Origin: Mesorhizobium sp. ES1-4
Lineage (GTDB): Bacteria > Pseudomonadota > Alphaproteobacteria > Rhizobiales > Rhizobiaceae
Assembly (NCBI RefSeq): GCF_020164745.1
Contig: NZ_JAIUGV010000008.1
Span: 248,001-312,000 of the forward strand
Reading direction: 5' to 3'
Length of the DNA stretch: 64,000 nt
Below are positions 4,470 to 62,885 of the stretch, in pieces. Made by a program: the position numbers and the translations under genes. The notes beneath the pieces were generated by a model. It ran no database searches. It was not told the origin of the DNA and saw only the letters and a program-made list of their open reading frames with translations. Each line of letters begins with the position of its first letter. The first letter of the stretch is position 1.

Positions 4470-4609
4470 TCGACCGATCGCCCTTACATCGTCGTCGCGT
4501 ATTTCGCGCCATCATCCTGACAGGGCCATGTCAGCTATCGACCGGTCAGCCGATGGCAGTCCAGCGGGTTGCTCCCTATTTTCAATGGGTCTGAACAGGA
4601 GGAACACAA

Positions 4610-4963
4610 ATGACCATCACCGAAATCGCCAAGGATTTCACCGAACTTCTCAAGCAGGGCAACAATCAAGGCGCTGCCGAGAAGTACAATGCCGACGATA
4701 TCGCCAGCTACGAGGCCATGGAGGGGCCGATGGCCGTCAGCCACGGCAAGGCGGCCCTCAAGCAGAAGAGCCAGTGGTGGCAAGAAAACAACGAAGTCCA
4801 TGGCGGCTCGGTCGAGGGTCCCTACGTCAATGGCGACCAGTTCGCGGTGCGCTTCACGTTTGACATAACGCCCAAGGCCACCGGCGAGCGTGTCACCATG
4901 GACGAGGTGGGCCTGTACACGGTCAAGGACGGCAAGATCACCGAAGAGCGCTTTTACTACTGA
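4610..4963 (+). CDS. SnoaL-like / NTF2-fold small protein
   Basis: Small cytoplasmic protein of 117 aa with the pattern of the SnoaL-like NTF2 fold: an N-terminal helix (EIAKDFTELLKQG), a middle part with KAALKQKSQWWQENNEVHGG, then beta strands ending in GLYTVKDGKITEERFYY. Such proteins are often ligand-binding or polyketide-cyclase-like, and no specific reaction can be assigned. The start is secure: AGGAGG lies at 4599-4604, 5 nt before the ATG. It is probably monocistronic, because a strong hairpin follows at 5021-5051. Confidence 0.8.
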   Translation: MTITEIAKDFTELLKQGNNQGAAEKYNADDIASYEAMEGPMAVSHGKAALKQKSQWWQENNEVHGGSVEGPYVNGDQFAVRFTFDITPKATGERVTMDEVGLYTVKDGKITEERFYY

Positions 4964-37764: not shown

Positions 37765-37941
37765 TCAGGCGCCGTTGATCATTTCGAGGGAAGCGTTGAT
37801 CGGCGGCAGGATCTGGCCGCTCGGACCAGCGATCGTGCGCAGCGCCTGCCGCACGCCCGGCATCGAGAAGGCGCCGTGGACCTGTGCGGCAAAGCAGGCG
37901 CTGAGCGCGAGGATCTGAAGAAGTCTGGATGCGGTTTTCAT
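37765..37941 (-). CDS. Small putative secreted protein
   Basis: Open frame of 58 codons on the opposite strand between glyQ and glyS. It begins MKTASRLLQILALSACFAAQ, a basic start and a hydrophobic core typical of a signal peptide, with a likely cut after VHGAFS. The ~30-residue rest (GVRQALRTIAGPSGQILPP) is not recognised. No good ribosome-binding site is visible, and the stop is 4 bp from the glyQ stop, convergent. I cannot exclude a chance frame. Confidence 0.45.
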   Translation of the reverse strand: MKTASRLLQILALSACFAAQVHGAFSMPGVRQALRTIAGPSGQILPPINASLEMINGA

Positions 37942-38135: not shown

Positions 38136-38255
38136 ATGCCTGACCTGCTTCTAGAACTTCGCTCCGAGGAAATCCCTGCCCAGCCGCGCGACCGCAGCGC
38201 CGGAGGCGCGAGGACGTGCAAACAGGAAAGTTGCATGCGGGTGGAGAGGCTCTGA
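38136..38255 (+). CDS. glyS leader mini-ORF 1
   Basis: Frame of 39 codons encoding the GlyS N-terminus [15 protein letters not shown], then [15 protein letters not shown] and a tail MRVERL. Its TGA at 38253-38255 overlaps the ATG of mini-ORF 2 (TGATG). No ribosome-binding site is visible before it. Compared with copies 2 and 3, its codons for D-L-L-L are GAC CTG CTT CTA, all synonymous. Translation is plausible but unproven; it may be a relic. Confidence 0.5.
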   Translation: MPDLLLELRSEEIPAQPRDRSAGGARTCKQESCMRVERL

Positions 38256-38373
38256 TGCCTGATTTATTGCTCGAACTTCGCTCCGAGGAAATCCCTGCCC
38301 AGCCGCGCGACCGCAGCGCCGGAGGCGCGAGGACGTGCAAACAGGAAAACGGCATGCGGGTGGAGAGGCTCTG
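38136..38373 (+). repeat. Two tandem 119-bp copies of the glyS start region
   Basis: Two 119-bp units (38136-38254 and 38255-38373) precede the glyS ATG at 38374. Each opens with a copy of the first 15 glyS codons followed by a 74-bp body that glyS does not have. The two bodies differ at only 3 positions (AGT TGC against AAC GGC, near 38230 and 38349). Each body holds a GCGCC-GGA-GGCGC hairpin. The ribosome-binding site GGAGAGG lies at the end of each unit, so units 2 and 3 have one while unit 1 does not. 119 is not a multiple of three, so each unit changes frame. Confidence 0.95.
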
Positions 38374-38374
38374 A
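38255..38374 (+). CDS. glyS leader mini-ORF 2
   Basis: Second 39-codon frame, the same as mini-ORF 1 except for the tail (GluAsnGly instead of GluSerCys before Met-Arg-Val-Glu-Arg-Leu). It is preceded by GTGGAGAGG, a usable ribosome-binding site, and its TGA overlaps the glyS ATG at 38374. If ribosomes start here, they would end exactly at the glyS start, so it could couple glyS translation to its own. Its first 11 codons are identical to those of glyS. Confidence 0.55.
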
Positions 38375-40605
38375 TGCCTGATTTATTGCTCGAACTTCGC
38401 TCCGAGGAGATCCCCGCCCGCATGCAGCGCAAGGCGGCGGGCGATCTGAGGAAGATGCTGACCGACGGTCTGGTCGAGGCGGGCCTGACCTACGAGGCGG
38501 CGCGTGAGTACTGGACGCCGCGGCGCCTTACCCTTGATGTCCGTGGGCTCAATGCACGCTCGAAGGATATTCACGAGGATATCAAAGGGCCGTCGACATC
38601 AGCGCCTGAGCAGGCGGTCCAGGGCTTTTTGCGCAAGGCAGGGCTGTCTTCGATCGCCGAAGCGCATGTTCATTCCGATCCGAAGAAGGGCGACTTCTAT
38701 GTCGCGCATATTGCGAAGCCGGGCAGGGCGGCCGAAGAGATCATCGCCGGACTGGTGCCTGATATCATCCGCAATTTTCCCTGGCCGAAATCGATGCGCT
38801 GGGGGCCGGCCTCGGCAAAACCGGGCTCGCTGCGCTGGGTGCGCCCGCTGCAATCGATCCTGTGCACCTTCGGCCCCGAGACCGAGGAGCCGGTCGTGGT
38901 CGATTTCGAGATCGACGGCATCCGCTCGGGTAACATCACCTACGGCCATCGTTTCCTCGCGCCCGGCGAAATCACCGTGCGCCGCTTCGACGACTATGTG
39001 AGCAAGCTGGAAGCGGGCAAGGTCGTGCTTGATGCCGACCGGCGCAAGGAAATCATCCTTGCCGACGCCCGCAACCTTGCCTTCGCCAACGGGCTCGACC
39101 TGGTCGAGGACGAGGGCTTGCTTGAAGAAGTGTCCGGGCTGGTCGAATGGCCTGTCGTGCTGATGGGCGAATTCGAACAGGCTTTCCTGGCCATTCCGGC
39201 GGAAGTGATCCGCCTGACCATCCGCGCCAACCAGAAGTGCTTTGTGACGCGGCCGCAGGGCGAAAGCGACGGGCTCTCCAACCGCTTCATCCTGACCGCC
39301 AACATCGAAGCGAAGGACGGCGGCAAGGAAATCGCCCACGGCAACGGCAAGGTGGTGCGCGCGCGCCTGTCGGATGCGCTCTATTTCTGGACGACCGACC
39401 AGGGCGACCTGCCTGATCTCGACCAACTCCATGCATCCGCGGAAAAATTCGGACTCGATCTGAAGAAGCCGCTCGACCAGCGCATGGCACGCCTCGACCA
39501 TCTTGGTGTTACCTTCCATGCCAAGCTTGGCACGCAGGGTGAACGGGTGGAGCGGATTGCCGAGCTTGCTGGAGAACTGGCGCCGGTCGTCGGCGCCGAT
39601 CCCGCGCTGGCGCGTCGCGCCGCTGTCCTGGCAAAGGCCGATCTCACCACCGAAGTGGTCGGCGAGTTTCCCGAATTGCAAGGCGCCATGGGCCGCAAAT
39701 ACGCGCTGCTCCAAGGCGAACATCCTTCTGTCGCCGCCGCCATCGAGGAACACTACAAGCCGCAAGGTCCGTCCGACTATGTGCCGAACGATCCGGTGTC
39801 GGTGGCCGTGGCGCTCGCCGACAAGCTTGATACGCTGGTTGGTTTCTGGATCATCGATGAAAAGCCGACGGGGTCGAAGGACCCCTACGCATTGCGCAGA
39901 GCCGCGCTTGGGATGGTGAGGCTGGCTCTGGAGAATGGGACGCCGCTGTCGCTTCTTGCCATCATGGCCAAACATCGAAAGACCACTGTTGACCAGATCG
40001 TTGAAAGACACGCCAGTGAGCAGGCTGGATCGGGCGGCGACCATGTGCGCGGGCGCGGGCAAATCGGCGACGGGAAATCTGTGGATCGAGACCTCCTCGC
40101 CTTTTTCCACGACCGCCTGAAAGTCTATCTCCGCGACCAGGGCGCGCGCCATGATCTGATCGACGCGGTGATCACGCCTCAGTCCGACGACCTGCTGCAG
40201 ATCGTGCGCCGCGTCGAAGCGCTTGGTTCCTTCCTCGACACAGAGGATGGCAAAAACCTGCTCGCCGGCACCAAGCGCGCGGCCAACATCCTGGCCGCCG
40301 AGGAGAAGAAGAAAACGGCGGTCGCCGAAACCGTTGAGCCTGCATTGTTCCGGCAGGATGCGGAGAAGTCGCTGTTTGCGGCGGTGAATCAGGCCGAGAA
40401 GCAAGCCGGCGAAGCGATTCAGAATGAAGACTTTTCTGCTGCCATGCTGGCGCTTAGTGTGTTGCGCGAACCCGTTGATTCATTCTTTGAGCATGTTCTC
40501 GTGAATGATGAGGACTTGTCCGTGCGCGCCAACCGTCTTGCGCTGCTCACGCGCATTCGCACGGCCACCGGTCAGGTCGCGGATTTCTCGAAAATCGCCG
40601 GCTGA
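38374..40605 (+). CDS. glyS: Glycyl-tRNA synthetase beta subunit
   Basis: Beta subunit of glycyl-tRNA synthetase, 743 aa; binds tRNA and is needed for charging. The N-terminal [17 protein letters not shown] and [10 protein letters not shown] are family blocks, [20 protein letters not shown] follows, and the DALR-like tRNA-binding domain is at the C-terminus. A Gly/Asp-rich loop ([20 protein letters not shown]) near residue 553 breaks the C-terminal part. The ATG at 38374 is chosen over 38335 because it gives the family N-terminus and has a ribosome-binding site. It overlaps mini-ORF 2 by one base. Confidence 0.94.
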
Positions 40606-62656: not shown

Positions 62657-62710
62657 CGCGTGTCCCCTTGCGATTGCGATCGATATCATCCGCCTGACCA
62701 TGCGGATTAC

Positions 62711-62867
62711 AATGCCTGCCAGGCCGGTCTTCTGGCTTGGGATCAACCCGCCTCCGGTGCCTTCCCGTCGTCGACAGTGGCATTTACCGGCGCGGTCCCC
62801 CTCACAGCGTTGGGCACGCCACGGAATCAAACCGTGTTCCCGATTCTCCCGCCAGAACATTTGCAGC
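62711..62867 (-). ncRNA. Cobalamin riboswitch upstream of bluB
   Basis: Read on the minus strand, the leader has the B12-riboswitch landmarks in order: GGGAACACGGTTTGATTCCG, CCCAACGCTGTGAGGG, GCCACTG, GGGAAGGC and the 3' box AAGCCAGAAGACCGGCCTGG. It ends about 55 nt before the bluB start, so the expected B12 repression of bluB fits. The boundaries are approximate. Confidence 0.9.
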
Positions 62868-62885
62868 CAAGTGGAATCACTTGGC
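62866..62885. repeat. Perfect 8-bp inverted repeat beside the riboswitch
   Basis: GCCAAGTG-GAAT-CACTTGGC forms a perfect stem with a GAAT loop at the 5' side of the riboswitch (minus strand). It may be part of the bluB promoter, an operator, or an intergenic repeat. The rest of the gap up to 63060 shows nothing I can name. Confidence 0.5.

Follow-up and report, generated by a model that had tools for sequence, protein, structure and literature searches.

The window analysed here, a stretch of 64,000 nt from Mesorhizobium sp. ES1-4, raises the question of why a conserved gene should carry its own start three times. The gene is glyS, encoding the beta subunit of glycine–tRNA ligase (38374..40605, + strand; NCBIfam TIGR00211, E 2.2e-220), and its start at 38374 is preceded by two units of 119 nt, at 38136-38254 and 38255-38373. 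The first 46 nt of glyS are present three times at a spacing of 119 nt: an outermost, native-type copy (A1; 38136..38181, +), which resembles the start of single-copy relatives and forms the first 15 codons of mini-ORF 1; a second copy (38255..38300, +), detected by repeat comparison; and the working start (A2; 38374..38419, +), whose codons are of the element type as judged from copy comparison and A1/A2 distances. Copy 1 shows 87% identity to copy 2 and 83% to copy 3, and the two whole units are 92% identical. Both units are reading frames of 39 codons: mini-ORF 1 (38136..38255, +) ends with a TGA at 38253-38255 that overlaps the ATG at 38255, and mini-ORF 2 (38255..38374, +) ends with a TGA at 38372-38374 that overlaps the ATG of glyS. 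The sequence GGAGAGG, a ribosome-binding site, is located before unit 2 (38243..38249, +) and before glyS (38362..38368, +), and unit 1 has none. The units, start copies, frames and TGA/ATG overlaps had been described in an earlier note on this DNA, and every detail that we checked was correct, including the presence of GGAGAGG before unit 2 and glyS and its absence before unit 1.

The earlier note mentions neither of two further features of the units, a hairpin and a segment complementary to glyS itself. The other 73 nt of each unit contain a conserved hairpin. Its cores at 38182..38228 and 38301..38347 (both +) match the covariance model R1, each with 63 bits (E 5.8e-15 in unit 1, the hairpin sequence of which belongs to the set used for building the model). 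Downstream of each core, GCATGCGGG is found at 38233..38241 in unit 1 (+, inverted repeat I2) and at 38352..38360 in unit 2 (+, inverted repeat I3). This segment, referred to here as the junction-complementary segment b', is the reverse complement of glyS 38417..38425 (+; CCCGCATGC), its target, which spans the insertion junction after about nt 46 of glyS as judged from the inverted repeat and junction mapping. A 40-nt pattern taken from the hairpin, with three mismatches at most, gave two matches in the window and none in 100 shuffles, which excludes chance as the source of the units in the window. Two further features of the window were recorded: a 58-codon ORF between glyQ and glyS (37765-37941, −), the start of which looks like a signal peptide by eye, and a cobalamin riboswitch (RF00174, 92.8 bits) at 62706-62877 (−).

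The glyS units are not confined to this genome. A 345-nt query gave a match in 145 of 146 genomes of the same genus, and at least 27 of the 146 carry extra glyS start units, a minimum because strongly diverged units may escape the query. One unit was read at 23 of the 27 carrier loci, two at three (G000, G021 and G045) and three at one (G051), and some carriers lie on contigs longer than 5 Mb (G051, G103, G104 and G029). The unit is nearly always 119 nt long in the genus, and even units that end with TAA retain their joint with the next ATG. The copy number, which the earlier note had left to a comparison across Mesorhizobium, varies from one to three units in these carriers, and related genomes do possess the units. 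A chance tandem duplication or an assembly error in one genome is thus refuted, both by the at least 27 carriers, some of them on contigs of more than 5 Mb, and by the strict-pattern hits elsewhere, 40 of 40 of which lie at the same kinds of site. At several Mesorhizobium loci, another GC-rich palindromic stretch (CCCCACCCCGGCGCTAACGCGCCGACCCTCCCC..GGGGAGGGTGAGGAGC), alternating with a different flank, was observed directly before the first glyS start, as in L007 (1458-1517) and L028 (1441-1500).

Hairpin, gene ends and junction-complementary segment

The conserved hairpin consists of GCGMCCGCAG, a variable stem and GAGGACGCGC; its lower stem is GCGCG/CGCGC, the internal loop is conserved, and the apical stem varies by compensating changes. 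Among 30 diverse hairpins, 95.3% of the cells were paired, and covariation was 0.225, compared with 0.087 in shuffles and 0.04 or less once the partners were slid, a control that favours the hairpin because the structure was drawn on those 30 sequences. Cells changed on both sides numbered 29, against 11.5 in shuffles, and the number of pairs with change on both sides was not above shuffles (3 versus 2.9).

The hairpin of the glyS unit is also present close to the ends of other conserved genes, at fixed points and mainly in Hyphomicrobiales. The sites are the starts of hisF, hisA and rnhA, the ends of ilvC, mmsA, sdhB and groEL, and tRNA-Gln, and the insertion points lie about 10-75 nt inside the ends of this limited set of genes. 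Genes were named by eye, and one representative per protein gene was checked against NCBIfam, where a CoA-transferase fell below the curated cut-off; five tRNA loci with the element are tRNA-Gln(TTG) according to ARAGORN. When the 73 non-glyS nt were used as query, weak matches were obtained in other genomes (61 genomes), several being the hairpin beside the 3' ends of ilvC or mmsA. The pattern GCGMCCGCAGN{3,18}GAGGACGYGC gave 114 matches in 78 of the 146 genus genomes, at least one of which (in G061) looks like chance, compared with five for the reversed control; all 30 of these 114 loci that were read were glyS, ilvC or mmsA. At the family level, the pattern occurs in 42 of 394 genomes and in 30 of 109 genera, including the window genome and three others of its genus, and the element was present at 26 of the 30 loci read (four of the 26 in the same genus) and absent from L107, L111, L114 and L115.

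Model R1 extended this range. Matches were obtained in 106 of the 146 genus genomes at E 0.01 and, at E 0.001, in 42 of 347 genomes of the order (seven of the same genus) and in 11 of 337 genomes of the class, the window's own included. Twenty further R1 hits fetched from the genus all carry the element (nine mmsA, seven ilvC and four hisF). For the order, 22 of 30 loci were looked at, the rest being of the same genus or previously read, and apart from L197 these comprise eight hisF, four rnhA, three tRNA, two glyS, two groEL and one CoA-transferase locus, and one hairpin-only array at a MarR-type gene (21 loci). A strict pattern applied to the genomes of 84,980 species gave 40 stretches, all with the element: 17 at mmsA, eight at hisF, seven at glyS and two each at ilvC, sdhB, hisA and tRNA genes. 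Their hosts were judged to be Hyphomicrobiales from the organism names, and two genera were looked up. The window genome itself carries the element at glyS and mmsA, with two units each, that is, four R1 matches at two genes; the pattern with up to three mismatches detected only the two glyS copies in this genome.

Among the ten other class genomes with an R1 match, one (L311) shows the full plan, three (L312, L313 and L315) have hairpins without a gene-end copy, and six have no recognisable element. In L311 (G984:C1, about 1411-1600), from another order of the class, two hairpins separate a 5S rRNA gene from the 5' end of a tRNA gene, an initiator tRNA by eye, and the b' segment GCTACGGACTGC agrees with the tRNA junction apart from one missing base. 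The hairpins of L312, L313 and L315, also from other orders of the class, are close to model R1 in other settings and are possibly other branches of the hairpin family. Two further arrangements were observed. In L189 (G571:C10:244671 onward), seven R1 matches follow one another at 46-nt steps, with one step skipped and without gene-end copies; this array lies at the end of a MarR-type gene, the frame of which runs into the first hairpin. In L246 (Zhengella mangrovi), the element seems to be present at both of the neighbouring genes hisA and hisF (about 3694 and 4572-4676). Carriers borne on phages or plasmids were also sought and rejected: a glyS-type query gave no match at E 0.01 in 50,697 phage records, an mmsA-type query gave none at E 0.01 in 72,556 plasmid records, and none of 18 pattern hits in IMG/VR had a flanking repeat longer than 9 nt.

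The element has a usual order, read from the outside towards the gene: the old gene end A1, the hairpin, an A-rich linker, b', the working gene end A2 and the rest of the gene. This order is independent of the direction of transcription of the gene, and the element strand is therefore sense at glyS, hisF, hisA and rnhA and antisense at ilvC, mmsA, sdhB and groEL. Exceptions are loci in which A1 is missing (L096 and L171), units with two hairpins (L192, L201 and L208) and hairpins only (L189). The similarity between A1 and A2 ends at a nearly fixed position of the gene across genera: at nt 44-48 in 27 of 28 glyS units and 45-51 in 15 of 19 hisF units, at 27-28 from the anchor in 18 of 29 ilvC units, and at 41, 46 or 48 in 36 of 44 mmsA units. 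At the tRNA-Gln loci, the stretch common to the outermost A1 and A2 is only about 10 nt long, suggesting that a short junction may suffice for insertion; the longer gene-end copies at protein genes would then be the length needed to restore the gene. The units measure about 95-155 nt where measured, and up to 182 nt with rnhA included, and contain no genes.

At glyS, mmsA, ilvC and hisF, the linker has its best inverted match mostly at a single target position in each gene; the mean linker–target scores are 8.0-9.0, compared with 5.1-5.4 for shuffled linkers. Complementarity is weak at rnhA (6.6 versus 5.8 for shuffled linkers, seven units), and b' was seen by eye only at tRNA-Gln, hisA and sdhB. 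The segment b' is a closer match to the target in its own genome than to permuted targets at mmsA (n=43; 0 of 2000 permutations as good), ilvC (n=29; 0 of 2000) and hisF (n=19; 1 of 2000), relatedness being uncorrected. At glyS (n=27), likewise uncorrected for relatedness, b' was no better on its own target (8.70 versus 8.68; 919 of 2000 permutations as good). Compared with the commonest target, the own target was matched better or worse by b' in 12 and one cases at mmsA, seven and four at ilvC, four and four at hisF, and one and 12 at glyS. Taken as a whole, the best explanation is that the units in the window are probably two tandem copies of a small non-coding hairpin element.

Origin of the copies and role of the mini-frames

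The presence of glyS units was placed on a tree of glyS bodies from 70 of the 146 genomes (all 27 carriers and 43 single-copy genomes, the other 76 being left out). The carrier state changes 19 times on this tree, and 13 of the changes are forced by well supported branches. Shuffled carrier labels required 21.8 changes on average and were as low as 19 in 65 of 500 trials, indicating that the presence of the units is scattered. Among the Mesorhizobium carriers, the distance over hairpin, linker and A2 head follows the glyS-body distance (Mantel r 0.705, 0 of 2000; 24 of the 27 carriers, two being dropped for unit length and one for a short body), and recent mobility at glyS thus lacks support. 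The A1–A2 distance is 0.188 within a genome and 0.195 between genomes, compared with 0.119 for A1–A1 and 0.103 for A2–A2. Since the within-genome A1–A2 distance is close to that between genomes and above the A1–A1 and A2–A2 distances, A1 and A2 appear to be separate old lineages in Mesorhizobium, and, together with the Mantel correlation, these distances suggest that the glyS duplication is older than these species. The glyS element of Mesorhizobium therefore looks old and inherited, perhaps with exchange, and lost many times.

Could the element be nothing but an ancient relic, passed on by descent and homologous gene exchange alone, with many precise losses and no current mobility? The Mantel correlation of 0.705 at glyS agrees with this explanation, as does a stem sequence that is partly locus-specific across genera, and loss by A1 x A2 recombination would be clean. 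It leaves unexplained, however, the occurrence of one hairpin family at about ten unrelated genes in several families, and the fit of b' to host-specific target variants at mmsA and ilvC, and we regard it as having roughly one chance in four of being right.

Genomes without units match A1 better than A2 (mean 40.3 versus 37.5 of 45 nt; A2 was closer in four of 15) in 15 chosen comparisons of near relatives, in which two non-carriers were used twice. This likeness is no proof of an empty site, because clean loss predicts the same. Together with the presence of the same hairpin unit at many gene ends, it supports the second suggestion of the earlier note, that an insertion had rebuilt the start of the gene. 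Some other genera have A1 and A2 copies that do not differ anywhere along the duplicated part (for example, L117 and L250), which fits either a young insertion or gene conversion. Such identity, extending over 45-51 nt in L250 and L242, would also be expected if a hairpin-plus-b' segment of 50-75 nt had been inserted at a staggered cut, by transposition or target-primed reverse transcription, leaving A1 and A2 as a long target-site duplication. Against this mechanism, the duplication reaches to the start or stop codon, or to just beside it, and has no fixed length (glyS, hisF, mmsA and ilvC, by eye), the outermost copy at tRNA-Gln has only about 10 nt in common with A2, and A2 is a distinct lineage in Mesorhizobium; an insertion of this type is improbable, at about one chance in five.

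The mini-frames of the hairpin element were then compared by the position of their stops, with counts that represent non-independent events because the units are related by descent. In all 36 glyS units (29 loci), the stop of the mini-frame is located between −7 and +5 nt from the real ATG, with unit lengths of 112, 115 and 117-122 nt that cover all three phases. All 16 scored hisF units stop at −2 to +7 of the anchor, and their lengths (95, 104, 107, 110, 119 and 155 nt) are all 2 mod 3; seven of the 23 hisF units were left out, for some units the anchor is a few nt out of place, and two of the 16 are both hairpins of one L192 unit. At rnhA, four of eight scored units stop at +1 and four stop 49-83 nt earlier, three units being left unscored. 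A motif resembling a ribosome-binding site (GGAG, GAGG or AGGA) precedes the working start in 30 of 36 glyS, 16 of 24 hisF and 11 of 11 rnhA units; in Mesorhizobium, 14 of 27 carriers have such a motif before the outermost start, and 21 of 43 non-carriers have one before their only start.

The outermost A1 copies vary mainly at the third codon position at glyS (0.033/0.019/0.29 for positions 1/2/3) and hisF (0.076/0.08/0.317); beyond the gene stop, the corresponding values are 0.065/0.036/0.196 at mmsA and 0.113/0.125/0.138 at ilvC. Stops occur in none of 35 A1 copies at glyS and none of 19 at hisF, in two of 41 at mmsA and in one of 22 at ilvC; anchoring of A1 is imperfect, as one hisF A2 row contains a stop too, and ungapped A1 alignment failed for 0 of 36 glyS, three of 23 hisF, eight of 58 mmsA and five of 36 ilvC units. 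The codon-position bias between A1 and A2 was rejected as sole proof of selection on the mini-frames, the untranslated mmsA copies being biased too (0.67, versus 0.75 at glyS), and variability within A1 together with stop position was used in its place. By these measures, the mini-frames of glyS and hisF appear to be under selection for an open frame that ends at the real start, and we infer that they are probably translated.

A conserved mini-frame and stop position at glyS and hisF would also be expected of a cis-acting regulatory RNA, in which the hairpin and the repeated starts tune the expression of the adjoining gene. Such an RNA would accord with the covariation of the hairpin and with an excess of G-T wobbles over A-C mismatches at 5' loci (32 versus 13). 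The bias is lost at 3' loci (5 versus 8), though, and the orientation is fixed to the gene interior, so that the hairpin is antisense at ilvC, mmsA, sdhB and groEL and is found at tRNA genes too. In addition, the presence of glyS units changes 19 times on the tree of 70, and the RNA fold in the window is no better than shuffles (z 0.29). A regulatory RNA is accordingly unlikely, at around one chance in seven. Rfam gave no match on the element, whether 5 + 9 loci were searched at permissive E-values or the window was searched at gathering scores, and a known RNA family was rejected as a candidate.

These results also bear on the translational relay proposed in the earlier note, in which ribosomes ending one mini-frame would be placed on the next start. 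As an architecture read from the sequence, the relay is supported: the stops fall at the start in 36 of 36 glyS and 16 of 16 scored hisF units, with only four of eight at rnhA. Its suggested purpose, tuning of the beta against the alpha subunit, is unsupported, because the element occurs at unrelated genes and also at 3' ends, where a relay is impossible. The evidence supports the relay as the way in which the gene would live with the hairpin element, rather than alpha/beta tuning.

Proposed mechanism and comparison with known systems

For the hairpin element, we propose that the native gene end (A1) was pushed outward when, in an ancestor, the element integrated at a short junction sequence, and that the gene-end copy brought by the element (A2) restored the gene, as with phages and ICEs. 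The segment b' may reflect recognition or templating of the junction, possibly via a folded single strand. Recombination between A1 and A2 would multiply the units or delete them cleanly, which would explain both the varying copy number and the scattered absence. At glyS, the gene may cope with the element through ribosomes that terminate and then reinitiate. The analysis detected neither a recombinase or transposase nor an autonomous version; an autonomous partner beside the tRNA-Gln sites was rejected as a candidate, since the eight tested of 16 ORFs beside two tRNA-Gln loci included no integrase. Beyond the window, we tentatively suggest, at odds of about one in three, a class of tiny site-specific elements that consist of a hairpin and a junction-complementary segment of about 7-13 nt and might work as a folded single strand or guide together with a host or helper recombinase. 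Such elements would enter conserved gene ends and tRNA genes, bring the gene end along so that the host is unharmed, and be retargeted by rewriting of the complementary segment.

Phages, ICEs and genomic islands that use tyrosine recombinases likewise integrate at the ends of conserved genes and tRNA genes and displace the old end outward. Here too, a duplicated gene end flanks the insert and the gene is restored, some sites being without the outer copy (L096 and L171). The hairpin units differ from them in being about 95-155 nt long and without genes, in using several target genes and in carrying an inverted copy of the junction; at 95-182 nt, they are too short to encode an integrase. For the tripartite ICE of Mesorhizobium, the part of the published account consulted names phe-tRNA for IntS and contains no glyS site (PMC5882170), and the attachment site of this ICE was rejected as a candidate.

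Tandem arrays of short units and an imperfect, covarying hairpin are shared with integron cassettes and attC sites as defined in general terms and abstracts. Judged on the same footing, the inverted junction copy next to a hairpin would suit a folded single-strand recombination site, as in integrons and the folded attP of CTX-type phages. In contrast to integrons, again by general definitions and abstracts, the sites of the hairpin element are many unlinked housekeeping genes, and its cargo is the end of the target gene. The integron box motif is GTTRRRY, and this box was not seen by eye in the hairpin element.

REP/REPIN sequences, RIMEs and MITEs are small non-coding palindromic repeats without a transposase of their own. 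By these general definitions, the hairpin element is likewise small, non-coding and palindromic, but it differs from all three in its long gene-end duplication. Unlike REP/REPIN sequences, it is not scattered in intergenic space, its four model matches in the window's own genome lying at two genes. It also departs from MITEs, as no inverted repeat bounds the unit in the window and the duplicated stretch is about 46 nt at glyS and about 10 nt at tRNA-Gln. Rickettsia palindromic elements are small hairpin elements tolerated in reading frames; set against this general description, the gene considered here is kept working by a duplicated end and is not interrupted in frame. As in translational coupling through ATGA or TGATG, the stop of the mini-frame lies on or beside the following start, and a ribosome-binding site is often close by; the upstream frame in our case is a chimera of the gene's own start and the hairpin element.

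No matching description was found in the open-licence literature, searched by titles and the beginnings of abstracts, and we assign the element, for which no integrase was found, neither to phage or ICE integration nor to integrons. If this anatomy holds, elements of about 100 nt live inside the ends of conserved, mostly housekeeping genes across a bacterial order, which suggests a route by which selfish DNA may enter conserved genes without harm. Such elements could also mislead the annotation of glyS, hisF and rnhA, by adding starts and spurious small ORFs and by making start codons doubtful, and the segment b' turns the choice of target into a testable question.
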